Below are positions 1,850-20,793 of a stretch of DNA of 25,161 nucleotides, one piece after another. The stretch comes from a virus, in the IMG/VR virus record IMGVR_UViG_3300050020_000050, positions 1 to 25,161 of that record. One strand, given 5' to 3'. A model generated the notes under the pieces. It worked only from the letters and a program-made list of their open reading frames with translations, had not been told where the DNA came from and did not search any database. The position numbers were made by a program, and so were the translations under genes. Every line of letters begins with the position of its first letter. Positions within the stretch are counted from its first letter, which is position 1.

Positions 1850-1874
1850 GAAAGTCAAAGAGGGAATTTCAGTT

Positions 1875-2357: not shown

Positions 2358-2414
2358 AGTTCTCGACACGCTCGCGCGCGTGAAAACCACAACCGGCAAC
2401 TGAGGGATGGAGCA

Positions 2415-2861: not shown

Positions 2862-2871
2862 GAGGTGCCGC

Positions 2872-3414: not shown

Positions 3415-3416
3415 TC

Positions 3417-4168: not shown

Positions 4169-4180
4169 CAGGGGTCGCCA

Positions 4181-4453: not shown

Positions 4454-4463
4454 AGGACTCACA

Positions 4464-4685: not shown

Positions 4686-4705
4686 TCAACGGAAACCGGT
4701 GAAGT

Positions 4706-4735
4706 TTGCCGGGTTTTTCTATTCTCCCGCATAAC
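4706..4735 (+). promoter_or_regulatory. Putative late promoter, TTGCCG-N18-CATAAC
   Basis: TTGCCG (4706-4711) and CATAAC (4730-4735) are separated by exactly 18 nt, the spacing found at three other sites (9912, 16158, 20560). It would start a transcript near 4742, giving a leader of about 43 nt with a GGAG ribosome site for the tail tube gene. The CCGG/CCGG stem and T5 run overlapping it (4696-4718) could also act as a weak terminator for upstream readthrough. Confidence 0.6.
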
Positions 4736-4784
4736 AACAGTAACGCTACACGCGAACCTGATTCGCACCACGGAGATTACGCCC

Positions 4785-5216
4785 ATGCCGGTTGTCGCTC
4801 ATAAAATTCAAGGTTTCAAGTCGCAGTTCAGCTTTACGCCGCTCGGCGGCGCGTCCACTCAGGCTAAGGCTCTGGCCGAGTGGTCGCTCGATATCAAGGG
4901 CGAGGCGCTGGACGGATCGGACCACGACTCCGCCGGGTGGAAAGACTACCTCACCGGCATGCTGGATTGGGACGGCACGCTGAAACAGGTGTACGTCGAA
5001 GGCGACGCATCGCAGGTGGCACTCTTCTCTGCGATCGCCAACCAGACGGTATGCGCCGGCGTGTTCTTTCCGGAGAAGTTGACTGGGCAGATGTCGTACA
5101 CCGGCCCCTTCACGATCACCGGGTACAAGCATGGGGGCACCACCAACAACGGTGTCCAGACGCTCGATATCACCATCAAGTGCGCCGGGGCATTGACGCA
5201 GACGGCCCAGGCGTAA
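4785..5216 (+). CDS. Major tail tube protein
   Basis: A 143-aa protein with a GGAG ribosome binding site. The sequence begins with a substrate-like strand pattern (KIQGFKSQFSF), contains the D-S-A-G-W-K-D-Y-L-T-G-M-L-D-W-D-G-T segment characteristic of siphophage tail tube proteins (lambda gpV / TP901-1 MTP class), and ends in strands like TLDITIKCAGAL. Hexameric rings of this protein stack to form the tail tube. It has its own putative promoter at 4706 and is followed by an intrinsic terminator at 5332, which would let it be made in large excess over the downstream chaperones and tape measure, as its copy number requires. Confidence 0.82.
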   Translation: MPVVAHKIQGFKSQFSFTPLGGASTQAKALAEWSLDIKGEALDGSDHDSAGWKDYLTGMLDWDGTLKQVYVEGDASQVALFSAIANQTVCAGVFFPEKLTGQMSYTGPFTITGYKHGGTTNNGVQTLDITIKCAGALTQTAQA

Positions 5217-5331
5217 AGAAGTCCTGGCCGGGGGCGCTCTGCGGGATGGGCATTCAAGTCCTGTAAACCGGGCGGCTGCCGCAGACAGAAGCGCGGCTGA
5301 CCCCGTCGCCTCCCGCTCAGGCACCAACCAC

Positions 5332-5369
5332 AAGGGCGACAGCGCAACAAGCTGTCGTCCTTTGTTTTT
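5332..5369 (+). terminator. Intrinsic terminator after tail tube gene
   Basis: AAGGGCGACAGC (5332-5343) pairs with GCTGTCGTCCTT (5351-5362), 12 pairs with one G-T wobble, loop GCAACAA, followed by TGTTTTT. This is a strong rho-independent signal 20 nt upstream of the chaperone start, probably partial, so that some readthrough supplies the downstream genes. Bases 5217-5331 before it show nothing coding. Confidence 0.85.
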
Positions 5370-5389
5370 GAAATTCAGGAGTCGCAATC

Positions 5390-5791
5390 ATGGCCGTGCA
5401 GCTTCGCACCACTCCGGTAACTCTCTCGCTCGGCGAGCGGACGTTCACCCTGCGTTTCAACCTCAACGCCGCATTGCTCATCCGCGAGGCGGGCAAGGAT
5501 GGCGCGGACGTGTGGGAGCAGATCGGCGAGAAGCCCGTACCGAAGGGTGCGCCCAAAGGTACGGAGCCAGAGAAGCTGTTTCGCGTCGACTACGAGAAAC
5601 TCCGCGTGTATTTATGGGCGATGCTGCAGGACGGCGCGAACAAGCGCGGCGAAGAGTTGACGATTGAAGCAGTCGGCGAACTGATCGAGCAGCGAGATGA
5701 CGTGATGCGCGCAGCCGCCGCCGTGGCTGAGGAAATTGCCCGCTGGTATGGCGTGCCGCTGGGAAAAACCCCGACTCCGCGCGCAAGCTAA
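5390..5791 (+). CDS. Tail assembly chaperone, G-type short product
   Basis: A 133-aa protein with AGGAG at about 9 nt. N-terminal beta strands (TLSLGERTFTLRFNLNAALL) precede a helical C-terminal half. It lies between tail tube and tape measure, the invariant place of the chaperone pair that coats the tape measure during tail assembly (lambda gpG). The last codons carry a slippery heptamer, so most ribosomes should stop here and a minority shift to make the longer GT product. Assignment rests on gene order, the frameshift signal and general pattern. Confidence 0.8.
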   Translation: MAVQLRTTPVTLSLGERTFTLRFNLNAALLIREAGKDGADVWEQIGEKPVPKGAPKGTEPEKLFRVDYEKLRVYLWAMLQDGANKRGEELTIEAVGELIEQRDDVMRAAAAVAEEIARWYGVPLGKTPTPRAS

Positions 5792-6162
5792 AGCGGCGGA
5801 GTCGTAAACCGAAGCTGTGGACGTGGGAAGAAGCCTACCGGCTGTGCTGCGGTCAGATCGGCATGACTGCGGCGGCATTCTATGACCTTACGTATGCCGA
5901 GCTCGCCTTGACTATCGAGGGGTACACGGAACGCATGAAGCAATCGAAGCGCGACCTGGCCTGGGTGGTGAGTTATCTGCTGCAACCGCACTTAAAGGAA
6001 GGCGCAACCATCACGCCCGCGCAACTGCTGGGCGAGAAAGAGCCGCGCGGACGTAAACGCAAAGCTGATGAGCCCGAATGGATGACGCCGGATGATGCCG
6101 CGCGCGAACTGGCGAAGATGCAGCCCGCAGAACCACAAGCTATCGAGGTGAAGAATGGCTAA
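5390..6162 (+). CDS. Tail assembly chaperone, GT-type frameshift product
   Basis: A -1 shift at the AAA codon 5765-5767 moves ribosomes from residue 126 of the short product into a frame open from 5767 to 6162, adding 131 residues for a total of 257 aa. The T part begins N-P-D-S-A-R-K-L-K-R-R-S-R, continues with W-T-W-E-E-A-Y-R-L-C-C-G, then a helical region and a basic segment (G-R-K-R-K-A). The first ATG in the T frame (5863) has no convincing ribosome site, which supports the fusion rather than a separate gene. In lambda the T domain brings the tail tube protein to the coated tape measure. Confidence 0.8.
5761..5804 (+). other. Programmed -1 ribosomal frameshift signal
   Basis: GGGAAAA (5761-5767) is read as CT-G GGA AAA, the exact X-XXY-YYZ phase. 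Four nt later a perfect 9-bp stem forms between 5772-5780 and 5796-5804, extendable past a bulged G by 3 pairs (5782-5784 with 5793-5795) with an 8-nt loop. The zero-frame stop TAA (5789-5791) lies in the loop. Lambda uses the related GGGAAAG at the same gene position. Confidence 0.88.
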
Positions 6163-8518
6163 CCCGTCTCTGGTATTTATCGTCGGCGCGAAGGATGAAA
6201 CGGGCGCCGTGCTCGCCGGCGTCACCGCGCACATGGATAAGATGAAGGCGCAGGCGAAGGAAACCGGCAACGCCTTCGAGGGTATGGGGTCGACCCTACG
6301 CAACGCGCTGGGCGCTGTGGGTATCGGGTTCTCGATGGGGGCTGTCGTCTCGCAGGTAAAGGAGATGATCAACACTAGCGTCGAATTAGGGATGGAGATC
6401 GGTCACCTCTCCGAAAAGACTGGAATCAGCACCGAAACCCTGAGCGGACTCAAATACGTAAGCGATATGACCGGGGTTTCGTTTGAGTCGTTGCAGCGTG
6501 CCAGCAAGAAACTCTCCACGGAGATGCTGGGCGTGGAAGAGAATTCAAAGCCTTCAATTGCGACGTTTGCCCGACTCGGTATCGCGCAGGACGAGGTTCG
6601 CCAGCACTCCAATGACCTGTATGGGATGCTGGAGATCATCGCCAATAAGTTTCAAGTGTTGCCGGACGGTCCACAGAAGGCCGCGATTGCTGTGCAGTTG
6701 TTCGGTAAAACCGGCATGGACTTGATCCCGATTTTAGACCAGGGCAGCGCCGGCCTTGCGAAGATGAAGGCGGAGGCTGAATCACTCGGGTTGGTACTTG
6801 ACTCGGCGGGAATAGCAAAACTACAGGAGATGCACCGCGCCGGCGTTGAACTCGATGGAGCGATGCAGGGCCTTGCGATCTCGCTCACCAATAGCCTTGG
6901 CCCGTCGCTGATTGGGGCCGCCACCCTTATCGAGAAGCTGATTGAGAAGGCGCGCCAGTTGAAAGGGCTCGGTGGAGACTCAAACACGTCGGGCTATGTG
7001 GGCTTTATTCCCCAAAGCACCTACGGGCTTACCGGGAAGGATCTCAATGCGGCCGGAGGAAAGGCCACCGACGCCGCCGGTTCCGCCCAGGCTTCCCTTA
7101 CCGAGTTGAACGCCCGGCACGACAAAGGGCTAGTCTCGCTGAAGGACTATCAAACGAAGAAGCTTGCGCTGGAACGGGAATACTATGCGCAGTCTCAGGC
7201 GGCGGCGGCGGCAGCCTTCCTTATTCAGCAGGATCGCGCCGCACTCTTGAAAGCCGACAGCGCCAACCTGCAAAAGCTGCACCCGATTACCAGCGGATAT
7301 GGTGCGGGCGGCGACATTCTGGTAAAAAACGCTCAAGACATCAACACCGCGACCGGCCTGATGCACAAGTACGGCGAAGCCATGAAAGACGCTTCGGAGA
7401 AGGCCGCAGAGTTAGACAAAAAGCCCGGCAAAGGCCTGATCCTTCAAGATCCAGGCGCCGCCGAAGCAGCGCGAAAGGCCGCCGAAGCCAAACTGAAGGC
7501 GGACGAGGCTGCGCTGAATCAACTCAAGATTAGCGGCGATATGACAGCAAAGGCCGAGTATGAATTTTGGGCCAAGCGTATCGACGCATTCAAGAAAGGT
7601 TCCGATCAGTACGATGCGATCCTGCAAAAACAGGCGAGCCTTGCCGCGGCTGGGGCGCGGACGGCGCACAGCGAGATTGAGAAGTTTAAGAAAAATGAAT
7701 TGGAGGAAGATAAACCCGAGCCGATTGACCGGACTATGCCGTCGATGGCCGATTGGGTCACAAAGCAGCAGTTAGACGCGCTGAATAAAAAGCGGGATTT
7801 CCAAAAGCGCGATGCGTCGACATCGGAGGACTCGATCACGCAGCGGGAAGTAACTGGCGCCATCAATCCGCGTACAGCCGATGCGGATATGCAGGCGCAG
7901 CATCAACAGGAGATCGTGCAACTCCAGGCGCTCGCGGCGGAATATCTCAAACTTGGGCCTGCTGGCTTTGATGCATACGCGGAAATTCAACACGAGATTA
8001 CGAGCACGATGGAAGAGACACAGAAGCAGGCTAGGCTCGTAAGTCAGGAGATGCAGTCGCTCGCGCATTCGGCGATCGACCCGCTAATTGAAGGCACGGG
8101 CACGCTTGGTAAGCGGTGGCTGGAGGTGGGGCAGAACATCCGCAAGGCGCTAGAACAGGCGATGGATAAGGAAATTGTCTCGATGATAGTGGGAAGCAAC
8201 GACATGCCGGGCGGAGGTAAGGGCAAGAGTTCGGCGGGGCAGGGCGGCGCGGCGGCGGGTATTCTCGGGTTAGTCGGCGGACTGTTTCGCGGCAAGGGTG
8301 CCGGAGCCGTCAAGGGAGCCATCTCCGGCGGCGGAAACGCGCCGGTGGTCCAGATTATCAACCAATCCTCGCAGCCAGTGGGCGGCACGGCTACCAGCAG
8401 CACGGGGAACATCACCGACAGCCTGCGCGGTCCGGTCATCCAGATCATTCTTGAGGACATCGAGCGGGGCGGGACCGTTGGGCAGATATTGGGCGGTGGC
8501 CTCGGGCTGATGAGTTGA
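6155..8518 (+). CDS. Tail tape measure protein (787 aa)
   Basis: The ATG overlaps the GT stop by 8 nt and is preceded by GAGGTGAAG. The protein is long, helical and Ala/Lys/Gln-rich, with an N-terminal amphipathic region, a hydrophobic stretch near 50-70 (GAVGIGFSMGAVVSQV), heptad-like segments, repeated lambda H-like motifs (H-L-S-E-K-T-G-I-S) and a Gly/Ala-rich hydrophobic part near 700-730. Tape measure length sets tail length: at the usual 1.5 angstrom per residue, 787 residues predict a tail near 118 nm. Its last 249 nt are overlapped on the other strand by the immunity-like gene. Confidence 0.93.
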   Translation: MANPSLVFIVGAKDETGAVLAGVTAHMDKMKAQAKETGNAFEGMGSTLRNALGAVGIGFSMGAVVSQVKEMINTSVELGMEIGHLSEKTGISTETLSGLKYVSDMTGVSFESLQRASKKLSTEMLGVEENSKPSIATFARLGIAQDEVRQHSNDLYGMLEIIANKFQVLPDGPQKAAIAVQLFGKTGMDLIPILDQGSAGLAKMKAEAESLGLVLDSAGIAKLQEMHRAGVELDGAMQGLAISLTNSLGPSLIGAATLIEKLIEKARQLKGLGGDSNTSGYVGFIPQSTYGLTGKDLNAAGGKATDAAGSAQASLTELNARHDKGLVSLKDYQTKKLALEREYYAQSQAAAAAAFLIQQDRAALLKADSANLQKLHPITSGYGAGGDILVKNAQDINTATGLMHKYGEAMKDASEKAAELDKKPGKGLILQDPGAAEAARKAAEAKLKADEAALNQLKISGDMTAKAEYEFWAKRIDAFKKGSDQYDAILQKQASLAAAGARTAHSEIEKFKKNELEEDKPEPIDRTMPSMADWVTKQQLDALNKKRDFQKRDASTSEDSITQREVTGAINPRTADADMQAQHQQEIVQLQALAAEYLKLGPAGFDAYAEIQHEITSTMEETQKQARLVSQEMQSLAHSAIDPLIEGTGTLGKRWLEVGQNIRKALEQAMDKEIVSMIVGSNDMPGGGKGKSSAGQGGAAAGILGLVGGLFRGKGAGAVKGAISGGGNAPVVQIINQSSQPVGGTATSSTGNITDSLRGPVIQIILEDIERGGTVGQILGGGLGLMS

Positions 8519-8773
8519 TTCGCGCATCGCGGCGGCGAGTTTAGCGTAGTCGATCACCTTAGATTTAGCCTCGGATTCTGTCTCCCCTGAGGCGGCCCAT
8601 ATCAGCGCGCCAAGCCATCCTACGACCGTCCATCCGAGTAGTAAATTCAGGGCGAACAAGCCGCCCCATGCCTGCACCTTCCGGATACCCGCGACGATCA
8701 CCGGCAGAAAGTAAAGCAGGAATGCAACCGCTACCAGAACCATTGCCGTTACTGTTGCCGAAGAGTCATCCAT
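8270..8773 (-). CDS. Superinfection-immunity-like membrane protein, C-terminus overprinted on tape measure
   Basis: GAGAGGGG precedes the ATG at 8773. Residues 1-84 hold two membrane segments (about 8-30 and 35-62) with F-L-L-Y-F-L-P-V-I-V-A and L-N-L-L-L-G-W-T-V-V-G-W-L, the signature of the T4 Imm-like superinfection immunity family, small inner-membrane proteins that stop DNA entry by related phages. The family is usually about the length of this N-terminal part. Here no stop occurs, so the frame continues another 83 residues antisense to the end of the tape measure gene; that tail is Ala/Asp/Arg-rich and unlike the domain. Orientation against the late operon fits a moron expressed from the prophage. 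Family call is from motif memory. Confidence 0.72.
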   Translation of the reverse strand: MDDSSATVTAMVLVAVAFLLYFLPVIVAGIRKVQAWGGLFALNLLLGWTVVGWLGALIWAASGETESEAKSKVIDYAKLAAAMRESTHQPEATAQYLPNGPAPLDVLKNDLDDRTAQAVGDVPRAAGSRAAHWLRGLVDNLDHRRVSAAGDGSLDGSGTLAAKQSAD

Positions 8774-8863
8774 AAAGCCCCTCTCAGATTACAAAATCAC
8801 TGAATAGACGGGATGCACGTCCTGCTCATCCTGGCTATCCACGATCAGGGATTGCCAACCGTT

Positions 8864-8892
8864 TGTCAAGCCTTATTTGCGAACTATTCGCA
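8864..8892 (-). promoter_or_regulatory. Candidate -35 element and palindrome between divergent genes
   Basis: On the minus strand a perfect TTGACA (8869-8864) lies upstream of the immunity-like gene, but I see no matching -10 at 16-18 nt. Beside it is a palindrome TGCGAA-CTA-TTCGCA (8878-8892) that could be an operator for either divergent gene. Weak evidence. Confidence 0.3.
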
Positions 8893-8912
8893 TACGGGGG
8901 CATGATGCGCGC

Positions 8913-9137
8913 ATGGCCAAGCTACTCGACTTCATCCCCGGATACAAACCCAAGCCCAGCCCCATCCACGCCGCACCCGTCTCCAAGATCAAGTTTGCGG
9001 ACGACATCGAGAAACTGATTGCCGGGTACTCCGCGCCGGAGGCTCTGGTGGTCTGTGAGGTGGTGATTCGCCGGCTGCGGGTGCGCGAGATCGAGGAAGC
9101 GCTGCTCGCCGCAACGCCGCCCGAGGGTGCTGCCTAG
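8913..9137 (+). CDS. Small hypothetical protein (74 aa)
   Basis: The frame is open from a TTG at 8877, but that codon lies in a palindrome; ATG 8913 is the first sensible start and gives M-A-K-L-L-D-F-I-P-G-Y. No strong Shine-Dalgarno precedes it. The first third is Pro-rich, the rest forms amphipathic helices (D-I-E-K-L-I-A-G-Y and V-R-E-I-E-E-A-L-L). No family recognised. It lies inside the mixed-strand island between tape measure and tail tip. Confidence 0.55.
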   Translation: MAKLLDFIPGYKPKPSPIHAAPVSKIKFADDIEKLIAGYSAPEALVVCEVVIRRLRVREIEEALLAATPPEGAA

Positions 9138-9154
9138 AGCGACGGTAATCCAGC

Positions 9155-9892
9155 CTAGAACTTGATTCCCTTGACGCGAATCGTGTTCCACACGCGCTCC
9201 CAGATTGTCACCCAACCCTCTTTTATCGCCGTCTCGCAGAGACGCTCGAACGGGAAGATGGCTTTGATGCGCGCCTCGGGAACCAACCAGTAAAAGACGT
9301 ACGCCTGGCGGTCGGTGATGTACCGGCCCATGATTGCGTCGACGCCACCCGCCTTCTGTAGAAAGAAGACGAAGCCGCGCACGATTTTCTGGCTCGCCAG
9401 GACCTTCTCGTCTTTCCGTTTCCCGCTGCGCAGTGTCTTTACGTATTTGCCGCTGTGCGCGGCCTCGGCTATCAGGTTCTTGGCGCGCAACTCGGCGGGG
9501 ATGATGTTACCCTTTCCGACCATCTGAATCAGCTTGTCGCTGGGCACGGCAATGTGCTCGTGACCGTTGTGCGGGACCTTCTCGCCGCCGGCGTCCTGTA
9601 GCGCCAGGTAGTTGCCGCCGTGCTCGTTGGTGGTATCGGCGATCACGGCGGCTTGCAGTGGCAGGGTTCCCTTTTCCGCGCGCCGCAGTCCAATCGACTT
9701 GCTAGTCCATGCGTTGCGGATGGTGAACGGGAATGAACTCCCCGGAGAGACTACTTTCTGCACGGAGTGTTGCGCGCTGGCAGCGCACTCGGTGAGTACG
9801 CGGGCAACGGCATACGGTAGCTGCGTCTTTTCGAGGTCGGTTAGGGCTTCGACGGCTTTAGTGATGTCCAGGCTCATGCTCATCTGTGGCAT
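9155..9892 (-). CDS. Putative tail-completion/minor tail-type protein on the opposite strand (245 aa)
   Basis: The start is uncertain: the frame opens at 9949, but M-P-Q-M-S-M-S-L at 9892 (or ATG 9883/9877) is more likely; no clear ribosome site is seen. The pattern L-P-Y-A-V-A-R-V-L-T-E-C-A near the N-terminus, an F-T-I-R-N-A-W segment near residue 55, a G-G-E-K-V-P-H-N-G region, A-V-P-S-D-K-L-I and a C-terminal aromatic stretch (V-F-Y-W-L-V-P) resemble phage minor tail or virion-morphogenesis proteins that start with a K-x-L-P-x-A-x-A helix. It is encoded against the flanking late genes, so it would need its own promoter. Function is tentative; the gene itself is well supported. Confidence 0.55.
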   Translation of the reverse strand: MPQMSMSLDITKAVEALTDLEKTQLPYAVARVLTECAASAQHSVQKVVSPGSSFPFTIRNAWTSKSIGLRRAEKGTLPLQAAVIADTTNEHGGNYLALQDAGGEKVPHNGHEHIAVPSDKLIQMVGKGNIIPAELRAKNLIAEAAHSGKYVKTLRSGKRKDEKVLASQKIVRGFVFFLQKAGGVDAIMGRYITDRQAYVFYWLVPEARIKAIFPFERLCETAIKEGWVTIWERVWNTIRVKGIKF

Positions 9893-9911
9893 GGCGCGAT
9901 GATGCCGTAAA

Positions 9912-9941
9912 TTGCCCGATTCGCGCGAACGGCCAGATAGT
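9912..9941 (+). promoter_or_regulatory. Putative late promoter, TTGCCC-N18-GATAGT, leaderless type
   Basis: TTGCCC (9912-9917), 18 nt, GATAGT (9936-9941), then 6 nt to the ATG at 9948. The upstream context AAATTGCC matches the sites at 16158 and 20560. With initiation at the usual distance the transcript would begin at or next to the start codon. It would drive the tail-tip operon. Confidence 0.6.
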
Positions 9942-9947
9942 CGCGGC

Positions 9948-10103
9948 ATGGAACTGCGGGATTTAGTCTTCCTCGGGGCGTGTCAATTGCTTGCCGATTC
10001 GGTGCGCCGCGACGGGTTCCAGATTGCGGTGCGCGAGATACCCAAAGCGCTCGCCTTGTCGAAAAGTATATGGGACGCCGCTGTCGAGGATAAAAGCCTG
10101 TGA
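9948..10103 (+). CDS. Small hypothetical protein at head of tail-tip operon (51 aa)
   Basis: ATG lies 6 nt after the -10-like element of the putative promoter, with no Shine-Dalgarno, so it is probably translated from a leaderless mRNA. The stop overlaps the GTG of the next gene (GTGA), indicating coupling. The product is helical with a hydrophobic N-terminal half (D-L-V-F-L-G-A-C-Q-L-L-A). Not recognised. Confidence 0.6.
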   Translation: MELRDLVFLGACQLLADSVRRDGFQIAVREIPKALALSKSIWDAAVEDKSL

Positions 10104-11026
10104 GCTATCCCATCCTGCCGTCGCTCTCCCGCGCTCCAGCGTTCAAATCGACCCGCACGGTGGCGAAGGGTGCAACCCTCTCCGACCCGATGGAGTCCGG
10201 CTACGTGGCTACGCGGCCGCGCTTCACCCGCCAGCGCCGCACCTTTGGGGTGACGTACGACTTTTTGACTGGCGAAGATGCGCGCGTGCTCGATATGTTC
10301 GAGTGCTTTGGCGTGATGGGCGAGGCGGGCGCGTTTTACATGCCCAACCTTCTGCCCAACGGCAGTTTTGAGATTCCCGACCCGATGGGCGGTATCTCCG
10401 GGTGGACGCCCGCGGCCGATCCCGGCTGGTCGGTCGCGCTGGGTGCGCCGCCGTCCGATGGCGCCAATGCGGTCGCGTTTGTGATCTCCGCCGCGGCCAC
10501 CAGCACGGCGCAGACCGGCTCCGTCCTCTCCAATAACAACTTCCCCGCGCTGGCTGGCGATGTCTACCAGGTCAATGCAGACGCTTCATTGGTCAGCACC
10601 TACGCCGCAGCCGTTGCGCTCAAGTTCGTGCTGCAGCTTGCGTATGCCGATGGCTCAACCATGACGCTCACGGCCCCGCTGCTCGCGGTTGAATCCTCGG
10701 CATACACGGAAGTCACCGCCGCGCTGACGATCCCCGCCAGTGGCACCGGCGCGACCGTATGCGTCGCCACCGCCAGTTTCGTTGCAACGCTGATTACCGG
10801 CACCACCGACGCGGGCGTAACTACCTCCGGCTCGCCATCCGCAACCATCCTGCTCGATGCGGTGGGCCTGGCGCTGATTACGCCGCAGCAAGCCTTCGGT
10901 CGCATGCCGGGATCGTCGCCGCTGGGCTCGCTGGTGCGCTTTACCAAGACACCCGCGCTGCGCGACGCAGGCTGGGCCGGCGGACAGAAGCGTTACGCCT
11001 GCACCTTTGAAATCTCGGAGGTGTAG
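10100..11026 (+). CDS. Tail-tip minor protein M-like with inserted carbohydrate-binding-type domain
   Basis: GTG start overlaps the previous stop. Residues 1-82 and 271-308 form a split minor tail protein of the lambda gpM type: the N-terminal half ends in G-E-A-G-A-F-Y-M-P-N, and the C-terminal piece has L-V-R-F-T-K-T-P-A-L-R and finishes C-T-F-E-I-S-E-V, typical of the strand closing the distal tail barrel. Between them, residues 83-262 begin L-L-P-N-G-S-F-E-I-P-D and look like a jelly-roll carbohydrate-binding module (CBM4/9 class). Lambda gpM is only about 109 aa, so the extra length is the insert. The tip probably binds cell-surface glycan. The domain call is by pattern only. Confidence 0.72.
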   Translation: MSYPILPSLSRAPAFKSTRTVAKGATLSDPMESGYVATRPRFTRQRRTFGVTYDFLTGEDARVLDMFECFGVMGEAGAFYMPNLLPNGSFEIPDPMGGISGWTPAADPGWSVALGAPPSDGANAVAFVISAAATSTAQTGSVLSNNNFPALAGDVYQVNADASLVSTYAAAVALKFVLQLAYADGSTMTLTAPLLAVESSAYTEVTAALTIPASGTGATVCVATASFVATLITGTTDAGVTTSGSPSATILLDAVGLALITPQQAFGRMPGSSPLGSLVRFTKTPALRDAGWAGGQKRYACTFEISEV

Positions 11027-11029
11027 CGG

Positions 11030-12069: not shown

Positions 12070-15000
12070 TTCGCTTAGTCGCCATTGCCAACCCGTTTCA
12101 ACCGATCCTTTCGCGGACGGTGTACGAGTTGTCGCACGTCGACGGCACCATGCTGGCGGACGTGCTGCGCGATGCGGAGATTGACCCCAACCGCCATACC
12201 TGCATCATCGACGGCTACGCCGTTCCGCCGGAGATACTCGCCGGCTACCCGGTGCGCGACGGTGTCGAAATTATCGCTATCCCAACCGTCGCTGGGCATG
12301 GCTGGGAGAAGATGACTGCCGAGCTCGCCGTGATGGCTGCGGTGGTGGTGGTGACCGGCGGACTCGCCGCGGGTCCGATGGCTGGACTCGGCGCGGGCGC
12401 GATGGGCTCTATGTTCGCATCGATCGGGCTGGGCGGGCTGAGTTCCGCAACCGTCGGACTGATCGGCGCGGGCATCGCATTGGGCGGCAACATGCTCGTG
12501 AATGCCTTCCTCGGCAACGTGGGCGGCAGCGGCAACAACTCCGCAAGCTGGGACCCCACCGGGCCAAAGACCGTCGCCTCGGGCAGCACGCCGATCCCGA
12601 AGGGTTACGGCACCGTGATGAGCGGCGGAAACATTATCGCCAGCTATCCGACGGCCGAAGGCGAAGACAATTATCTCAACGTCGAGGTGAGCCACGGCTG
12701 GGGGCCGGCGCGGTCGCTCGCCGATCTGCGCATCAATAAAAACTCAATCCAGAATTTCATCGGCGTCACCTACCAGGTGCGCTACGGCTCGAACGCGCAG
12801 ACACCGATCCCCTACTTCTCAAACATCGTCAACGGCTACCCCCAGGCGACACGCTGTATTGCGGTGGGCGCGGGCGGCTCGCCGGTGGTCATCAACGGAA
12901 CCGGAACCGCAACGCAGGGGCTGGAAGTTGTGATCCAGTTTCCAGACGGCGTCTTTTACTCGACCAATAACGGCAACACGATACCGCTGCGGGTTGCGTA
13001 CCTGATCGAATACTCGGTGCATGGCTCGGGCACCTGGCAGCAGCCGTACATCCCCGACGCCACCCAGGACATCATCACGCGGGACATCCACGGCGTTATC
13101 ACCTACGCGCCGACGTGGGTGGTCATCCCCAGCAATACGCACTACTCTTCGGGCGTCGTCTATCAGTGGGATAGCGGCTCGCATACGCCCGGCGACATCT
13201 GGACCGGCACGCAGACGCTTACCATCGTCCGTCCGGACGGCTCGACTTTTACCACCTCGGTCGCGCTTGCCGGTGAGTGGCAGCCGTGCGACACCAACCT
13301 AAACCAGCAGGGCGTGATGAGTTGGCGGCAGGGCTACGTGATTTTTTCCGGAGCGAATCAAGGCGCGCTCTACCACCAGACCGCCATCTACAATCTGACG
13401 CCCGCGCAGTACGACGTGCGTGTGACCAAGTACGGCTCCGCCATCTCGCCCGACGCGATCCAGCAGGTTGAGGGCAATAACAACCGCACCGGCGACCAGG
13501 TGTGGGTGCATTCCATCAACGAAATCCAGTATCAGGATCTCGCCTATCCGAATATGATTCTGGCCGGCGTGCGCGCGCTGGCCACCGACCAACTCTCCGG
13601 CGCCAGCATCAACCTCACGGCGCTGGTTACGTTCGGCATCAACGCCACACTGCCCGCGGCGCTCGCCGGATTCGGCGAAGATAACCCGGCGGTGGTGGCC
13701 TACGACATGCTCGTCAATCCGCTGTATGGCGGCAACGTCTCCGCCGCCAACATCGATGTTCCGGCGTTCGCGGAGTGGGCAGCGTACTGCGACCAGACGG
13801 TCTCCGATGGATTCGGCGGGACGATCAAGCGCTCCGTCTTCAACGGCATCTTCGACCAGCCGGGCACGAATCTCTGGAAAGCGCTGCAGAAGGTCGCCAT
13901 CCTCGGCTATGCGTCGATGGTGCAGATCGGGCAATACTACACCGTCAACATCGATCAATTGGTGACCGTTCCGGCGCAGGTATTTACCGTCGGCAACGTT
14001 ATCCGCGACAGCATCAAGGACACCTGGATTGCGCTGGACGATCGCGCCAACCGCATCGAGGTAACCTTCGCCGACGCCGCCCGCGACTACCGCACGGACG
14101 AGCCATGCGCCGTGATGCTGGCGGCCAACATCAACACCGGCGCGGAGATCAAGCCCACCCGCGTGCAACTGCTCGGCTGCACCAACCGCGCGCAGGCGTG
14201 GCACTGGGCATACCGCAAGCTGATGTCGACTTCGCTGTGTCTGCTGCAGCGCAGCTTCGATGTGGGTATTGAGGCGGTGGCGTGCCAGGTTGGCTCCGTG
14301 ATCGGCATTCAGGACGACGTCACCCAGTGGGCCTACGGCGGCCGGATTCAGGCAGGCAGCACGGCGAGCAGTTTGATAGTCGATCGCGACGACCTGCCGT
14401 GGGCCTCGGGCGTGGGTTGGACCGCGACCGTCGTCCATCCGGTCGTGCAGCGCGGAACTGGGACAGTATCAAGCATAACCGGCAACGTCGTAACCTTCGC
14501 CGCGCCCATCCCCACCGCGCGCGTCGTCAACTTTACCGGGCCAACCGGGACGAATTACATCATCGAAGGTGTAGGAACCTCAACTGCAACGGTGCAGAGT
14601 GTCACCGGCTTATCGGGCGGGCAGGCGGTCACCTTCTACGATCAGGACGTCGTCGACACCCAGCCCATCTCCGCGCGGGTGGGCGGAGTACTGACCCCCT
14701 ATGCTCCATTCCTTCAGGCGCCCAGCGCCGACTCGCCGTGGGTGTACGGACAGTCCGCCGGAGCGTTCCCCGCGCAACTCTTCACTGTCACCAACATTCG
14801 CCGCAAGGGTGATCTGCAGATGACCATCGACACGCTGGTCTACGAGCCCGCCATCTACTCGGACGACACGCCGCTGATCACCCAAACGCTCTCCGTGCCG
14901 GATGCCAACGCGGCCGTTACCAGCCTCACCGCAGTCGAGAATTACACCATGGCGAACTCTGCCAACGGCGGCCAGGCGTCGGTGATCAATGTCGGATGGC

Positions 15001-16154
15001 AGAACGGGCCAAACACCGCGCGCACGGAACTCTGGATCGCGCAGAGCATGCCCGCCATCCCGCAATCGCCCGAGCGGCTGTATGAGACGGTATCGAAGGG
15101 CACCAGCGCACAGCTATCCTTCGCCACCGGAACCATCCTCCAGATTCGCGCCGTCGGCGTCGACGCGCAGGGCAACCCGGCGCCATTCGCAACCGCGCCG
15201 GTAGTCACGATTACGGTGCAGGGCTCGGGCTCTGCACCGGGGGATGTGCCGCTGTTCGCAGGCGCGTTTGTCTCGAGCGTTACTGTTCTGACTTGGGGCG
15301 CGGCAACCTCGGCGGCAAACTACGAAGTCCGCTACAACTCCGACCCGGCGAATACCAACTGGAATACTGCCGGGCTGCTGTGGAGCGGCAGCGCGCTTAC
15401 TTGGGCGGATGCGCAGGTGCGGCTCGGCTGCTATCTCATCAAGTCGATATCGAGCACGACGGTTGAATGTGTCAGCGCCGCCTCGTGGAACTACCTGCAG
15501 AATCCCGTGCGTGTCAACACAATCGGCCTGATGCCAGGGCAGGGTCCGTTTGTCGCGCTCACAACGAACACCTACGACAGCGGAACCAGCCTGTCGACGC
15601 TGGTCTTTACGGTGGTGCCGCAGTCGCCGCTATTGACGGATGGAACGCCGGTCGCGTTGCCTGCCTCGTCTGTCTCGTGGACAGGCACACTGGCACCTAC
15701 GACGGTGTATTACATCTATCTCTACCTGCAGCCGGGCACGTTTCTGCTGGCGGCATCGACCGGCGGATCTCCCACTCCGGACACGGCGGCCAGTACGCCG
15801 GATCTCAACTTCTGCTCGGCGAACGGAAACTATCTCGCATTTACCGCCGCAATCACCACGGCCGGGCCTGTCAGCGGGGGTAGCTCGACGGGGGCAGCGT
15901 TCGACGTTACAACGACGATGGTCACCGACTTCTTTGGTGATCCGGCGTATGAGGATATCGACATCACCGTCATTACCGGCGGCACCGGGTACACCAGCGG
16001 CACCGCCTCGCTTACGGGCACCGTGGCACCGCATCAGACCTCCACCAGCACTCGCCGCATGGTCAGCTATACCGCAGTCGGCGGCGTGGTTACGGCGGTC
16101 TCGGGGTGGGATTCGAGCCTGATCTGGCTGGCGCCGCCCTCACTTGTCATCTAA
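12066..16154 (+). CDS. Tail-tip I-J fusion: central spike / host specificity protein (1362 aa)
   Basis: The frame is open from 11853, but homology-like sequence begins at L-I-R-L-V-A-I-A-N-P-F. TTG 12066 overlaps the K stop, so translation is probably coupled. Residues 1-75 are a small beta-grasp-like domain, then a long Gly/Ala hydrophobic region (about 85-150), together like lambda gpI. From about 170 on, K-T-V-A-S-G-S-T-P-I-P and later modules match J-type proteins, with the R-A-Q-A-W-H-W-A-Y-R-K motif near 720 and two fibronectin III-like regions after about 960. J forms the trimeric tip that binds the receptor. It exceeds lambda J (1132 aa), partly because I is fused to it. The C-terminus (after about 1150) is Thr/Gly-rich and probably variable. 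Confidence 0.85.
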   Translation: MIRLVAIANPFQPILSRTVYELSHVDGTMLADVLRDAEIDPNRHTCIIDGYAVPPEILAGYPVRDGVEIIAIPTVAGHGWEKMTAELAVMAAVVVVTGGLAAGPMAGLGAGAMGSMFASIGLGGLSSATVGLIGAGIALGGNMLVNAFLGNVGGSGNNSASWDPTGPKTVASGSTPIPKGYGTVMSGGNIIASYPTAEGEDNYLNVEVSHGWGPARSLADLRINKNSIQNFIGVTYQVRYGSNAQTPIPYFSNIVNGYPQATRCIAVGAGGSPVVINGTGTATQGLEVVIQFPDGVFYSTNNGNTIPLRVAYLIEYSVHGSGTWQQPYIPDATQDIITRDIHGVITYAPTWVVIPSNTHYSSGVVYQWDSGSHTPGDIWTGTQTLTIVRPDGSTFTTSVALAGEWQPCDTNLNQQGVMSWRQGYVIFSGANQGALYHQTAIYNLTPAQYDVRVTKYGSAISPDAIQQVEGNNNRTGDQVWVHSINEIQYQDLAYPNMILAGVRALATDQLSGASINLTALVTFGINATLPAALAGFGEDNPAVVAYDMLVNPLYGGNVSAANIDVPAFAEWAAYCDQTVSDGFGGTIKRSVFNGIFDQPGTNLWKALQKVAILGYASMVQIGQYYTVNIDQLVTVPAQVFTVGNVIRDSIKDTWIALDDRANRIEVTFADAARDYRTDEPCAVMLAANINTGAEIKPTRVQLLGCTNRAQAWHWAYRKLMSTSLCLLQRSFDVGIEAVACQVGSVIGIQDDVTQWAYGGRIQAGSTASSLIVDRDDLPWASGVGWTATVVHPVVQRGTGTVSSITGNVVTFAAPIPTARVVNFTGPTGTNYIIEGVGTSTATVQSVTGLSGGQAVTFYDQDVVDTQPISARVGGVLTPYAPFLQAPSADSPWVYGQSAGAFPAQLFTVTNIRRKGDLQMTIDTLVYEPAIYSDDTPLITQTLSVPDANAAVTSLTAVENYTMANSANGGQASVINVGWQNGPNTARTELWIAQSMPAIPQSPERLYETVSKGTSAQLSFATGTILQIRAVGVDAQGNPAPFATAPVVTITVQGSGSAPGDVPLFAGAFVSSVTVLTWGAATSAANYEVRYNSDPANTNWNTAGLLWSGSALTWADAQVRLGCYLIKSISSTTVECVSAASWNYLQNPVRVNTIGLMPGQGPFVALTTNTYDSGTSLSTLVFTVVPQSPLLTDGTPVALPASSVSWTGTLAPTTVYYIYLYLQPGTFLLAASTGGSPTPDTAASTPDLNFCSANGNYLAFTAAITTAGPVSGGSSTGAAFDVTTTMVTDFFGDPAYEDIDITVITGGTGYTSGTASLTGTVAPHQTSTSTRRMVSYTAVGGVVTAVSGWDSSLIWLAPPSLVI

Positions 16155-16157
16155 AAA

Positions 16158-16187
16158 TTGCCCGATCCTGGCGCTGTGCAGCATAAC
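16158..16187 (+). promoter_or_regulatory. Putative late promoter, TTGCCC-N18-CATAAC, leaderless type
   Basis: TTGCCC (16158-16163), 18 nt, CATAAC (16182-16187), then CGAAGT and the ATG at 16194. It begins 3 nt after the J stop codon. No Shine-Dalgarno fits between promoter and ATG. Same layout as the sites at 9912 and 20560. Confidence 0.65.
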
Positions 16188-16193
16188 CGAAGT

Positions 16194-19187
16194 ATGAAAC
16201 TCATCCGCCTCCGCATCCTTGCGCTCTACCTCGCCGCCGTCCTGGCTGGCGGCCTCGCCGAAGTAGCCGCAGCGCAGACCACGTCCATCACCGCATCGAG
16301 TGGCGGCATCCGCATGGGGGGAGTAACGCTTGCGACCGGCTCGGCGGTGCTGGTCCCGGTCGATGCCTACGGGCATCCGATCGCAGTCGAGATCTCCGGC
16401 GGCGGGCTGAATATCCCCGGCTCAGTACAGAAGCCGGTGGGCTACTCCTGCACTATCACGGCGGGCGCGCTGGGAACCTGCAATGTGCCGGATGAGATTA
16501 CCGCGCAGCCCAGCGGCTTCCACTACAACATCACTATTTCGGACACCACCACCTTCGGCCATCCGACCAGCGGAATGTCTTTTCTGTTGCCGAGCGTGGG
16601 CGGCATCACGGGCGGCAGTTTCGCGCTGGATCTCTACGTTCCCACGGCATCCGTGCCCACGACCGCAGCCCTCACATTCACCAGCGGCTCCGGCACCCCG
16701 GTCGGTGCATGTACGGCCCCAGCACTCTACACCAACACGGTGTCTAGCACTCTTTATCAATGCGTCGCGGGCGCATGGGTGCAGATCATCGGTGCCGGCG
16801 GCGCGGTCAATAGTTTGACTACCACCGGAAGCGGCGCGGCAACACTGGCGGCCGGAGTGCTGAATATTCCGGTCGGCGGCAACCAGTTCTCTGTGATGAA
16901 CTACGCTGGAAACTCCGGCGGAACGATTGATAACTCCGCCGCGGTGACAGCCGCCTGCGCGGCCAATGGTCAAGTGTTCTTTCCGGTTGGCACTTACAAC
17001 TTCACTAGCAACTACACTGTGCCGTGCCCCAGCACCTACCAGATTGGTGCGGCGCTGAAAGCACCCAACGCGGTGACTGTGACGCTGGGTGCTCAGCCTT
17101 CTGCACTGCCATCTCAGCAGATATTTGTGTGGGCCGGAACTGGCAAGTTTGTCGGACTCTCCGGGACAATCCCGGTTGAGTGGTTTGGGGTGAAGAGCTA
17201 CCAGACGCTTGCAGCAGCAGCAGCAGCAGCAGACGATACTGCGGGATTTGCGGCGACATTGACAGCAGTAGCAATGCGTGGCAATGCCCTGCTACAGTGT
17301 GCCGTCTACAATGCATCTTCTACGATTCTGGTTAGTACGTCGTCAACTGGAATTCACGGATCTTGCCCAGGGATAATCGGAGCACCTTTCCCTGCAACTG
17401 GTATCCCATCCACCATCATTTCTACCAGCCCAAGTGCGGATATTATTGACTTGATAGGAACCTCATTGGCCTGGTTGGATTGGAACATATTTGATAACTT
17501 CACTGTGCAAAGAACATCAGGCCCAACCGGAACGGCGGCAGGCATAAATGTATTATATGCTGGCGGCTTTGTGTTGAATAGGATAGTTTCTGCCGATAGC
17601 ATTTGTGACTTTGGATTCAATTCCGCAGCCGGATATACGGGTGAAGTTTCCTTCAATGCGGCTGTGTTCGGCCAGGTTTTTGCCTATACAGCAGACACTA
17701 CCGGATGGTGCGTAACTGGCAACACTCCCAGCCTATATTTTGTGAACGATCAAACTGCTAACACAAATTCTCTGCATAGTGGCGTGGCACGCGGAATTTT
17801 GATTGAAGGCTCAAATATCCGTGATCAAATTTGGACGAACTACACTGATGCTGGGATGGACTTCCCCATCACCATCCACAACACTGGCACTGACAAGGAT
17901 GATGATATCCATTTTATAAATGCGATTTTGGATGGATTTGATGGTACTGGCGTGACCATTGAAAACATCTTCCCTGCGGCTGGTGGTGGTGGAGGCATCA
18001 CTTTTGTTGACGGATACATGTCTGGTGGTGGTGATGGTGCCAAGGATTTTGACATCAAAAGCAGTTCTGGAATTATCATTGGGCCGATGCAGATTGAGGG
18101 ATCAGGTAACCCTGTGCTCACTGTAGATAACAGTTTGGGTGGGGTCAGCTCAGAAATCAACATTCATGATTTGTATGTCTCCCTAAGCACCGGAAGCACC
18201 AACGTCAATCCTTTCCTTATAAGCAACACAAAAAACAGTACCTTCCACGACAATATTTTTGACACAGGTGGCTCGACCGCAGCCATTACTATAACCAATG
18301 GTCATGGGCTTGCAGTTCACGGCAACTCCATATCAAATGCTGGGGCGGGAATAAAGGTTGACGGAACGAGCGGTCACAACTCAGTCACAGGGAACACTTG
18401 TGACGCTGTCACTGTTACAGGCGCTTGCCTAGCAGACCTAAGCTCAACAGATGTATGGATTGATCCTGCAACCGGAAATGCTCAATTCCCAGGAACCATC
18501 AGCAGTGGCACCGGAATATCCGGCCTCCCAGCCGCAATCTGGAAAGTGTGCGGTGACATATCCGGCGGAAGCGGTTGCGTTCCAACATCCTCAACAGTTG
18601 CTTACGATTCCAGCGGTAACGGGCTAAATGGCACATGGAATGGGACGCAAAGCGGTACAACCAACTGGTACTCCGCGAGCACGCCAGAAGTGTATGCCGG
18701 AACGTTCGATGGTAGCACTGACTACATCCAGACTGGATACACACCGAGTGGGCTTACAAACTTCACCTTGTCTGCGTGGATTTATGTCCCGGCGTGGGGC
18801 ACAGAGTTCGCGGTGTCAAGTAGAACTACCGCTGCGAACGGAATAATGCTCTTTATGAACGGCGGCTCTGGAACAAACATGTTTGTCTACGGTGGATTTT
18901 CTGATGGCAGCGGTAATTCCACGCTGGCCAATGCAACAACTACCATAGGCGCGTGGCATTGTGTAGCTGAGACGCACGTCGCCGGGGCCACTAACGTTAC
19001 CTTATACATTGATGGGGTCTCATCAGGAGTGCCAACGTCAGGATCAACAGCAACCAATCCTGGTTCCGGCGGCCCTTTGTATATAGGAAAAGATGGTAAC
19101 GGTGGCAACTATTGGAATGGCATGATCAATGATGTGCGCGTCTATCCCAGCGTGCTCCCGTCAGGCGCAATACCCGGCTGTATTTAG
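16194..19187 (+). CDS. Tail fibre/tailspike with beta-helix and LamG-like lectin domain (997 aa)
   Basis: ATG 16194 is set by the promoter; a TTG at 16158 is the promoter's own -35 element. Residues 1-28 look like a Sec signal peptide (L-A-L-Y-L-A-A-V-L-A-G-G then A-A-A-Q), odd for a virion part. Residues about 30-225 are Gly/Thr-rich beta modules. About 229-750 read as a right-handed beta-helix of the pectate-lyase/tailspike class, starting G-G-T-I-D-N-S-A-A-V-T-A-A-C and Q-V-F-F-P-V-G-T-Y. About 780-997 form a LamG-like jelly roll (Y-D-S-S-G-N-G-L-N-G-T, F-D-G-S-T-D-Y-I, T-L-S-A-W-I-Y-V). It would bind or degrade surface polysaccharide. DNA from about 17240 to 19190 is clearly more AT-rich than its neighbours, indicating a swapped receptor module. 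Confidence 0.8.
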   Translation: MKLIRLRILALYLAAVLAGGLAEVAAAQTTSITASSGGIRMGGVTLATGSAVLVPVDAYGHPIAVEISGGGLNIPGSVQKPVGYSCTITAGALGTCNVPDEITAQPSGFHYNITISDTTTFGHPTSGMSFLLPSVGGITGGSFALDLYVPTASVPTTAALTFTSGSGTPVGACTAPALYTNTVSSTLYQCVAGAWVQIIGAGGAVNSLTTTGSGAATLAAGVLNIPVGGNQFSVMNYAGNSGGTIDNSAAVTAACAANGQVFFPVGTYNFTSNYTVPCPSTYQIGAALKAPNAVTVTLGAQPSALPSQQIFVWAGTGKFVGLSGTIPVEWFGVKSYQTLAAAAAAADDTAGFAATLTAVAMRGNALLQCAVYNASSTILVSTSSTGIHGSCPGIIGAPFPATGIPSTIISTSPSADIIDLIGTSLAWLDWNIFDNFTVQRTSGPTGTAAGINVLYAGGFVLNRIVSADSICDFGFNSAAGYTGEVSFNAAVFGQVFAYTADTTGWCVTGNTPSLYFVNDQTANTNSLHSGVARGILIEGSNIRDQIWTNYTDAGMDFPITIHNTGTDKDDDIHFINAILDGFDGTGVTIENIFPAAGGGGGITFVDGYMSGGGDGAKDFDIKSSSGIIIGPMQIEGSGNPVLTVDNSLGGVSSEINIHDLYVSLSTGSTNVNPFLISNTKNSTFHDNIFDTGGSTAAITITNGHGLAVHGNSISNAGAGIKVDGTSGHNSVTGNTCDAVTVTGACLADLSSTDVWIDPATGNAQFPGTISSGTGISGLPAAIWKVCGDISGGSGCVPTSSTVAYDSSGNGLNGTWNGTQSGTTNWYSASTPEVYAGTFDGSTDYIQTGYTPSGLTNFTLSAWIYVPAWGTEFAVSSRTTAANGIMLFMNGGSGTNMFVYGGFSDGSGNSTLANATTTIGAWHCVAETHVAGATNVTLYIDGVSSGVPTSGSTATNPGSGGPLYIGKDGNGGNYWNGMINDVRVYPSVLPSGAIPGCI
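17211..17231 (+). repeat. (GCA)7 trinucleotide repeat
   Basis: Seven perfect GCA units encode a seven-Ala run in the fibre, right where base composition changes. A slippage-prone tract that may mark the recombination joint. Confidence 0.9.
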
Positions 19188-19196
19188 GAGTTCCCT

Positions 19197-19838
19197 ATGA
19201 TCCGAATCGTCCGTCTCACAATGCTCGCCGCACTGGCCACCGCGCTGGTCTATTCCGCCCACGCGCAGAACACGCCTGCTCCCGTAGTTCCGCCCGTCCC
19301 CGCGCCAGTGTGGGTGACAATCTCGCCCGAAAGTGCAACCGTTTCGGTTACGCTGCCGGCTGGCGCCACCTATCGCTTCGGCGATGCGGTGAATAATCTG
19401 TGGAGCGCGCCGATCACAGTGCAGGTCGCGACCACGTTCAGCCCGGTATTCTTTCCCTCCGGAGTGTTTCCCTTCAGCGATCCGGACCCGAACACCGCGA
19501 AAGAACTGGATGTGCTCGAGACCGCCGACGCGCAGGGTGTCACTATCACGGACCTGTCGACCTCGCCCGTCGCGGTGACTACGCAGATCGTTCCCGCGCT
19601 GGCAGCGCCTCCGCCCGCGCATACCGTCACGTTTACTAACTTCCAGAACACTGCCGTCGGGCAAACCGCGCTACTCTTCGCGTTCGCCAATCTCCCCGAT
19701 CAAAGCGGAGCGGGCGCGAGCGTATGGGAAGGCACGCAGATGGATATCGCCATCGATGGCGTCACCTGGACCTGCAGCTACGGCCAGAACTACACCGACC
19801 AGGTCTACACGCTGAATTGCAACCCGCCCACGCCATGA
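19197..19838 (+). CDS. Secreted hypothetical protein (213 aa)
   Basis: AGGAG sits 6-7 nt before the ATG. The N-terminus M-I-R-I-V-R-L-T-M-L-A-A-L-A-T-A-L-V-Y-S is a clear signal peptide, with predicted cleavage after S-A-H-A-Q. A Pro-rich linker (25-40) leads to a beta-rich domain with two C-terminal Cys (T-C-S-Y and L-N-C-N) that could form a disulfide. It follows the fibre gene by 9 nt and overlaps the next by 4 nt. It may be a fibre-associated or periplasmic protein; no family recognised. Confidence 0.7.
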   Translation: MIRIVRLTMLAALATALVYSAHAQNTPAPVVPPVPAPVWVTISPESATVSVTLPAGATYRFGDAVNNLWSAPITVQVATTFSPVFFPSGVFPFSDPDPNTAKELDVLETADAQGVTITDLSTSPVAVTTQIVPALAAPPPAHTVTFTNFQNTAVGQTALLFAFANLPDQSGAGASVWEGTQMDIAIDGVTWTCSYGQNYTDQVYTLNCNPPTP

Positions 19839-20512
19839 GGCTGCTCGACACACTCAAAGCGCTCGCGCTCGCAACGGTTCCGGTGGTGGGAGCGTTCGCC
19901 ATGTGGACGCTGTGGCCGGTGCATGGCGCCATCCTCGGCGCGCGGGCGCAAGGGTACACGCTGGCGGTAAAGGCCGGTGCAGTGCTCGGGCACGTCGACA
20001 ATGCGGCGCTGGCCGGCGGCAAGCTGATCAACGACTCCCGCGTCACCGTCTCCGAAATGAACCGCGCCGCGCTGGATGAGCGCAAGTATTTCGAGGTGAT
20101 GCTGCCGCCGCTGCTTAGCCAGGCGCAGGGTATCCTCGCCAACGTGCAAACCGATACGGCGGATCTGCATACGGTATTACTGGCAGGCGCAGGGACGGCC
20201 AACGCCGCCTCCGCAGCCATTCAGACGGCTAACTCATCCATCCCGCGCACGCAGCCGCTGGTGGACGCCGCTACGCTCGCCATCGGGCATGCGGATGCAA
20301 CCACCGTGCGGGTGAATGCCTTCCTCGATGCACCGCTGCTCACAGATACCGGCAAGCACACCGCATCGATCGTCGCGCACGCCGACGCCATCACCGGAGA
20401 TGCGCAGTTCGAGGCGGACAGGTTCACCCACCCGCCGCCGCAACGCTGGTACCAAAAGGTGTGGCACATAAGTGTGCAGGTGGGCACGCTGGTCTACGAC
20501 TTCATCCGGTAG
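19835..20512 (+). CDS. Membrane-anchored helical hypothetical protein (225 aa)
   Basis: ATG 19835 overlaps the previous stop (ATGA). One N-terminal membrane segment (about 7-27, A-L-A-T-V-P-V-V-G-A-F-A-M-W) is followed by a long Ala/Thr/Val-rich helical region with heptad-like spacing (about 45-190) and a C-terminal aromatic part (R-W-Y-Q-K-V-W-H). The shape resembles periplasmic coiled-coil proteins such as spanin-like or MCE-like tethers, but this is not a family match. It ends the fibre transcription unit, before the lysis promoter. Confidence 0.65.
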   Translation: MRLLDTLKALALATVPVVGAFAMWTLWPVHGAILGARAQGYTLAVKAGAVLGHVDNAALAGGKLINDSRVTVSEMNRAALDERKYFEVMLPPLLSQAQGILANVQTDTADLHTVLLAGAGTANAASAAIQTANSSIPRTQPLVDAATLAIGHADATTVRVNAFLDAPLLTDTGKHTASIVAHADAITGDAQFEADRFTHPPPQRWYQKVWHISVQVGTLVYDFIR

Positions 20513-20559
20513 GTGCTTCGCACTGTTCTCCACGCTTCGCGTAAAAACTTCCCTGTAAA

Positions 20560-20589
20560 TTGCCGCCTTTACGCGCTCTGCCGCATAAC
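20560..20589 (+). promoter_or_regulatory. Putative late promoter, TTGCCG-N18-CATAAC, leaderless type
   Basis: TTGCCG (20560-20565), 18 nt, CATAAC (20584-20589), then TAAGGC and ATG at 20596. Preceded by AAA as at the other sites. It sits in the 83-nt gap before the small membrane protein genes. Confidence 0.65.
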
Positions 20590-20595
20590 TAAGGC

Positions 20596-20793
20596 ATGAA
20601 AGCCGCCATCGCCCACAACTTCAACGCATACTTCCTCGCATTGCTTGGGGTGTTGTGTGTCCAGTATGGGTTCCACTCCGGAAATGTAGCCCTGGGCACG
20701 CTAGGAAACGCGGCCTGGGCGGCGGCGCTATACGCCTTCAAGAGTAGCCCTCCACCTCCAGATTACCCGGCGCAGGTGCCGGACCCAAAATAA
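20596..20793 (+). CDS. Small two-membrane-segment protein, holin-like (65 aa)
   Basis: ATG 6 nt after the putative -10. Two hydrophobic segments (about 11-28, A-Y-F-L-A-L-L-G-V-L-C-V; about 31-48, L-G-T-L-G-N-A-A-W-A-A-A) and a Pro-rich soluble tail (P-P-P-P-D-Y-P). Size and topology fit a class II holin, which would time lysis by permeabilising the inner membrane. Many small phage membrane proteins look alike, so this is inferred. Confidence 0.6.
   Translation: MKAAIAHNFNAYFLALLGVLCVQYGFHSGNVALGTLGNAAWAAALYAFKSSPPPPDYPAQVPDPK

Follow-up and report, generated by a model that had tools for sequence, protein, structure and literature searches.

A repeated phage-specific element with the layout of a leaderless late promoter in a clade of phages probably infecting Acidobacteriota

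The virus contig IMGVR_UViG_3300050020_000050 of IMG/VR, analysed here as the whole 25-kb record (25,161 nucleotides, hereafter the window), carries four copies of a short repeated element that is likely to be a late promoter peculiar to a clade of phages and prophages, most likely infecting Acidobacteriota, with transcription predicted to start at the start codon itself. A sequence-only reading of the window had proposed that these copies, of the form TTGCC(C/G)-N18-(C/G)ATA(A/G)(C/T), make up a promoter family yielding leaderless transcripts, and our comparative analysis supports this proposal for all of them except site 1, which is predicted to be leadered, not leaderless. The four sites lie on the + strand with an identical 18-nt spacer, exactly as described (Table 1), and in the last three the ATG follows the -10-like hexamer after precisely 6 nt. 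The pattern has exactly four matches in the window, compared with 0.05 expected from dinucleotide shuffles—an expectation that is post hoc, the pattern having been derived from these same four sites. A near-identical record of 38,351 bp (G001) extends the window leftward and holds a fifth exact site ~186-222 bp beyond its edge, TTGCCG-N18-CATAAC-CAACGT-GTG, leading into the capsid/protease gene.

An independent weight matrix, built from 14 non-self sites of other phages, indicates that the four sites did not arise by chance. The sequence-only reading had suggested a scan of this kind, and across the ~38-kb phage the matrix gave the top five places to the capsid site (43.1 bits) and to window sites 1 to 4 (30.7, 18.9, 25.7 and 22.8 bits, respectively), followed by a divergent site at 12.4 bits, a connector site at 11.1 and the next match at 8.8. 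The relatives were gathered by searches with tail, terminase and capsid proteins and share 30-77% amino-acid identity; many of the contigs are fragments, and near-identical contigs of one phage were collapsed as non-independent. A scan of genome contigs with the minor-tail protein found no relative. The layout—AAATTnGC, a spacer of 18, a (C/G)ATAAC-like hexamer, 6 nt and a start codon—recurs in ~20 related phage or prophage contigs, where it stands before head-tail connector, capsid and minor-tail genes. The element is conserved between phages differing by 30-70% in protein sequence, and one contig (L044) keeps the promoter despite a capsid protein of just 29% identity. When every combination of spacer (13-23) and gap (2-11) was counted over 28 clade loci, the cell with spacer 18 and gap 6 held 21 sites, against 0-2 in each other cell; the same cell held 2 sites among 62 loci of more distant phages, and a matrix scan of the distant loci revealed a clear site at the capsid gene in L177 and L180. 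Conservation also extends beyond the positions used for selection, with an unselected A at -38 in 18 of 18 non-redundant sites and at -39 in 17 of them. The AAA that the sequence-only reading had noticed ahead of TTGCC is present, and it belongs to a larger conserved -35 block, AAATTnGC; the -10 element reads (C/G)AT(A)nn(C/T), and the matrix consensus is TnGC.. and (C/G)ATAA(C/T).

The position of the predicted transcription start is the second line of evidence. In a census of 45 non-redundant sites scoring at least 13 bits, 38 have a gap of exactly 6, so that the predicted +1, the seventh base past the hexamer, opens an ATG or GTG; outside the training set, the figure is 21 of 28. Every one of the remaining seven sites has an A at the predicted +1, and in three of these a Shine-Dalgarno sequence (AGGGAG, AGAGGT and AGGGGAG) lies directly at the 5' end, with the start codon 12-15 nt further on, as in AGGGAGACGCCC-GTG, AGAGGTTGAGCG-ATG and AGGGGAGTAAGACCA-GTG. 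This arrangement, hard to explain otherwise, argues that the base in question is the transcription start. Leadered copies at L375:11072, L376(-):16746 and L378(-):14551 are found in the lysis region of relatives, their Shine-Dalgarno running from the predicted first RNA base, and L378:14551 stands before an endolysin-like gene. For five genes behind start-codon sites, the free energy of pairing with the anti-Shine-Dalgarno sequence is -1.7 kcal/mol or weaker, while other genes of the phage range from -2.9 to -13.3 kcal/mol; the last three window sites, at -1.7, -1.4 and +1.4 kcal/mol, bear out the claim that they have no usable Shine-Dalgarno.

These data also bear on whether the element might instead be a DNA operator, or an RNA or translation element placed at start codons, and not a promoter at all. 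The fixed distance to the start codon would suit such a function, and there is a parallel in Cluster K mycobacteriophages, where the start-associated sequences, 13-bp GGGATAGGAGCCC with a Shine-Dalgarno-like core, have been read as a translation signal (PMC3203893). Both are repeated, phage-only motifs beside start codons and absent from host genomes; the element described here has another sequence, however, lacks a Shine-Dalgarno, shows a promoter layout and does not match the definition of the start-associated sequences. We regard an operator or translation element as very unlikely, considering that seven copies stand off start codons with an A at +1, three with a Shine-Dalgarno next to it, that the -10 and -35 blocks are placed relative to +1 as in a promoter, and that a strong terminator just upstream at most capsid sites calls for a new start before the start codon.

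This terminator gives the third line of evidence. At most capsid sites an intrinsic terminator, with a hairpin of -18 to -23 kcal/mol, carries the element on its 3' arm and ends ~20 nt before the start codon; the capsid transcript must therefore start inside that interval, where a leader would hardly fit. The capsid site on G001 sits on one such strong terminator, CCCGGCGAAATTTGCCGGGTTTTT, at -21.8 kcal/mol. Site 1 is a copy of this capsid unit ahead of the tail-tube gene—the two share ~43 bp at 91%—and it retains a hairpin of -9.5 kcal/mol. With no start codon at +1, it is followed by a leader of ~43 nt with a GGAG Shine-Dalgarno before the tail-tube start at 4785. Such a recent duplication might suggest a dispersed mobile or duplicated repeat with no role in expression, an explanation we consider hardly credible, since the other sites share the conserved blocks only and occupy orthologous places in phages that are 35-70% identical in protein. 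Taken together, the fixed geometry, the start codon or A at +1, the missing Shine-Dalgarno, the terminator overlap and the phage-only occurrence documented below point to a promoter family with leaderless transcripts.

The closest genome matches of the phage are a prophage in a metagenome-assembled genome (MAG) labelled 'Acidobacteria bacterium' (terminase, 62%) and another in the MAG NGEE_A_bin35 (69%), all further genome matches being at or below 46%; based on these two best prophage matches, the host is probably a member of the Acidobacteriota. We scanned a host sample of 1.22 Mb from the two MAGs (2.4 million positions) with the non-self matrix. The best position reached 17.0 bits and none reached 18, and the strict pattern, run against the genomes of 61 relatives of the MAG host, matched nothing beyond the prophage capsid site and two further places—L369 and L370, in G021 and G062, which resemble each other. 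In the two prophage-bearing genomes together, the stricter TTGCCS pattern had a single occurrence, at a prophage capsid gene. Equal frequency at random host positions, which the sequence-only reading had named as one result that would count against it, was thus not observed.

Could these nonetheless be ordinary leaderless promoters of the housekeeping sigma-70 type, with the phage copying host style and no special factor involved? Bacterial leaderless genes led by TANNNT have been described in several phyla, the Acidobacteria among them (Zheng et al. 2011, PMC3160421), and 9.7-19.4% of the genes in Acidobacteria are leaderless (PMC3160421). Like them, the phage element has a -10-like hexamer ~12 bp before the start (6-7 nt between hexamer and start codon), a start codon serving as +1 and no Shine-Dalgarno; it differs in its hexamer, (C/G)ATAA(C/T) in place of TANNNT, and in the conserved AAATTnGC block at a rigid 18-nt spacer. 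Host genes show the same leaderless geometry, TANNNT peaking at gap 6 in the two MAGs (13 and 19 versus ~4 and 6 elsewhere), a peak partly inflated by in-frame TAA/TAG triplets that define open reading frame (ORF) starts, with the in-frame gaps 0, 3, 9 and 12 lacking such a peak. A distant relative (L037) moreover carries TTGACA-N18-CATCAT-N6-GTG at its capsid gene. The phage-type hexamer (C/G)ATA(A/G)(C/T), by contrast, occurs at host gap 6 only 1 and 0 times, while the phage clade has 2 TANNNT against 16 of its own type at that gap, and the host leaderless candidates showed no T.GC block at spacer 18. Furthermore, the canonical TTGACA/TATAAT combination is absent, and a standard promoter scan of positions 1-20000 passes over sites 1-3. 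These observations, together with the lack of any host site at 18 bits, make a plain housekeeping promoter an unlikely explanation, and the host sigma preference that the sequence-only reading had offered for TTGCCS is likewise unlikely, the motif being absent from host genes. Acidobacterial leaderless genes, and a host gap-6 peak with another hexamer, suggest that the host tolerates leaderless mRNAs whereas the phage has a promoter sequence of its own. A related comparison is provided by Cluster O mycobacteriophages, whose SigA-like promoters are predicted to yield leaderless mRNA (PMC4351075); those follow the host SigA consensus and are few per genome, whereas the present element is non-consensus, phage-only and repeated at late genes. 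Among other promoter types, sigma-54, sigma-28 (TAAA-N15-GCCGATAA) and extracytoplasmic-function promoters were rejected for misfits of spacing or sequence.

The phage-specific late promoter that we favor could operate as follows. RNA polymerase carrying a determinant not used by host genes, for which a phage sigma-like factor or activator is a candidate, would read the element through AAATTnGC (approximately -40 to -33) and the (C/G)ATAA(C/T)-like hexamer (-12 to -7), and the RNA would begin exactly 7 nt past the -10 hexamer, at A or G. In most copies, +1 would be the first base of ATG or GTG, giving a leaderless mRNA that could exploit the leaderless initiation already in use in the host phylum; in a few (window site 1 and sites in the lysis region of relatives), it would instead be the first base of a short leader. 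Where the -35 block would double as the 3' arm of the intrinsic terminator, as at most capsid sites, a single 60-bp unit may end the packaging/portal transcript and start the capsid transcript—a compact design for joining a terminator to a leaderless promoter. The late genes would thereby be split into several separately started units.

Several points weigh against this interpretation. The host assignment leans on prophages in two MAGs, only one of which is named Acidobacteria, and folding predicts a weak hairpin or none at the capsid sites of L168, L248 and L180. The search for a specificity factor common to all members found none: an ORF resembling sigma region 4 lies by dnaN in G027, G028, G030 and G033, and the search did not turn it up in this phage or in G031. 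Finally, the housekeeping sigma factor favours T at -12 and -7, and CATAAC has T at neither position, so that it is doubtful whether host polymerase could use the element unaided.

The dedicated activator suggested by the sequence-only reading accordingly stays plausible, as an activator or a sigma factor, and no such factor was identified. Several candidates emerged. The sigma-region-4-like ORF encodes a conserved protein of ~130 residues, with a C-terminus resembling sigma-70 region 4 (PHROG 1740, 3e-6), just upstream of dnaN in L373 (G027), L324 (G028), L326 (G033) and L327 (G030). Small helix-turn-helix proteins near dnaN are candidates in this phage, and a search with its own helix-turn-helix protein returned nothing convincing in relatives. 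The phages encode their own DnaN clamp (TIGR00663, 7.5e-57), which five of the six contigs under comparison retain, and a conserved 175-aa protein of unknown family lies directly upstream of TerS (L027:6954-7478) in this phage, in most relatives with the region and in the L045 prophage. Its C-terminus resembles a clamp-binding motif (QLALF in most relatives, QGCLF here); its AlphaFold2 model (alignment A3) was poor, with a mean predicted local distance difference test score (pLDDT) of 51, and was not used for a fold search. As in T4, whose late transcription relies on gp55, gp33 and gp45 (PMC7892883), there would be many short phage-specific late promoters unused by the host, along with a phage-encoded sliding clamp; T4 late promoters lack the conserved -35 present here, however, and counterparts of gp55 and gp33 are candidates only. 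Clamp-coupled late transcription with DnaN is a speculation, by analogy to T4. As a tentative extension, which we rate as somewhat less probable than even, a phage factor (sigma-region-4-like, or a clamp-tethered coactivator acting with DnaN) might drive a late switch of the clade's own, in which rigid AAATTnGC-18-CATAAC promoters, some of them merged with the terminator that closes the operon before, would command a coordinated leaderless set of late structural genes.

The sequence-only reading had called leaderless late mRNAs unusual for a phage. They are not without precedent: most middle and late mRNAs of Thermus phage phiYS40 are leaderless, the phylum of its host abounds in leaderless genes, and an IF2/IF3 shift has been reported (PMC3594737); Acidobacteria, too, use leaderless genes. 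The two cases are alike in having late leaderless mRNAs—here predicted from sequence—and a host phylum with leaderless genes, while phage and host phylum are unrelated. We found no description of the element in the open-access library that was searched, which omits most subscription papers, and promoters go unmentioned in a 2025 paper on Acidobacteriota phage isolates (PMC11924767). Acidobacteriota are among the most abundant soil phyla, and gene regulation of their phages has hardly been described. For many uncultured phages the element provides a late-gene regulon that can be put to the test; it also offers a signature for recognising more of them, and a case of a phage late regulon apparently relying on leaderless translation with a promoter unused by the host.

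Table 1. Copies of the element and associated genes in the window; promoter positions and starts are predictions.
Feature	Position	Strand	Details
Capsid/protease gene, cut by window edge	1..1782	+	PF05065 Phage_capsid
Site 1, terminator-like hairpin fused to putative late promoter	4693..4741	+	-35 4706-4711; -10 4730-4735; predicted +1 = A4742
Tail-tube gene	4785-5216	+	Phage_tail_2 / PHROG major tail protein
Tentative further site	8877..8912	+	TTGCGA-N18-CATGAT-N6-ATG(8913); geometry only
245-aa minor tail protein gene, read from divergent site	9155..9892	-	PHROG 1924 minor tail protein
Divergent site, overlaps site 2	9893..9928	-	-35 TCGCGC 9928-9923; -10 CATCAT 9904-9899; 6 nt; ATG 9892-9890
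Site 2, putative late promoter	9912..9947	+	-35 9912-9917; -10 GATAGT 9936-9941; predicted +1 = A of ATG 9948
51-aa ORF led by site 2	9948..10103	+	overlaps minor-tail gene start
Minor-tail/virion structural gene downstream of site 2	10100..11026	+	PHROG 384 (weak)
Site 3, putative late promoter	16158..16193	+	-35 16158-16163; -10 CATAAC 16182-16187; predicted +1 = A of ATG 16194
Gene led by site 3, fibre-like, 997 aa, with a lectin-like domain at the C-terminus	16194..19187	+	PF13385 Laminin_G_3, 4.9e-22
Site 4, putative late promoter	20560..20595	+	-35 20560-20565; -10 CATAAC 20584-20589; predicted +1 = A of ATG 20596
65-aa gene led by site 4, at lysis-module position	20596..20793	+	position only

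Each site had also been said to open a functional block, and sites 1 and 3 stand before the tail-tube and the fibre-like gene, respectively; the fibre and lysis labels derive partly from gene order, the lysis assignment at site 4 being one of position, and neither Pfam-type nor PHROG scans found a family match for the 65-aa gene there. Site 2 first leads the 51-aa ORF, which has no PHROG family match. The minor-tail gene behind it has its own Shine-Dalgarno (-5.9 kcal/mol) and orthologues in six of six compared contigs; in relatives the site stands directly on this gene, and the position of site 2 is orthologous to the CATAAC-N6-GTG sites of L009, L025 and L036. The gene at the fibre position in L009 is similarly preceded by GATAAC-N6-ATG. 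Between 9890 and 9950, site 2 and the minus-strand site (the sixth-ranked place in the phage) stand back to back with one spacer region in common, and L037 shows this divergent arrangement too, in its case with a TTGCC-N7-GGCAA dyad. The tentative site at 8877 falls under the matrix threshold and was not counted; a G-run upstream could serve as its Shine-Dalgarno (-8.6 kcal/mol).

A further candidate upstream of TerS in this phage, TTGCCA-N18-TAGCTT-N6-ATG, was dropped, since relatives do not keep it as a promoter. Most of them (L021, on the reverse strand, L029, L044, L239, L240, L242, L244, L245 and L249) instead have another conserved block just before TerS, around CTAG(C/A)G(C/A)CAG and then a T-run, which is possibly a cos or terminase-binding site. 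Two other genes of the window were also recorded: a superinfection immunity protein (PF14373, 1.8e-15) is encoded inside the tail module on the minus strand (8525-8773) behind its own GAGAGG Shine-Dalgarno, and a single-stranded DNA-binding protein-like gene at 2415-2861, among the head and tail genes, is kept in six compared relatives (42-52%).

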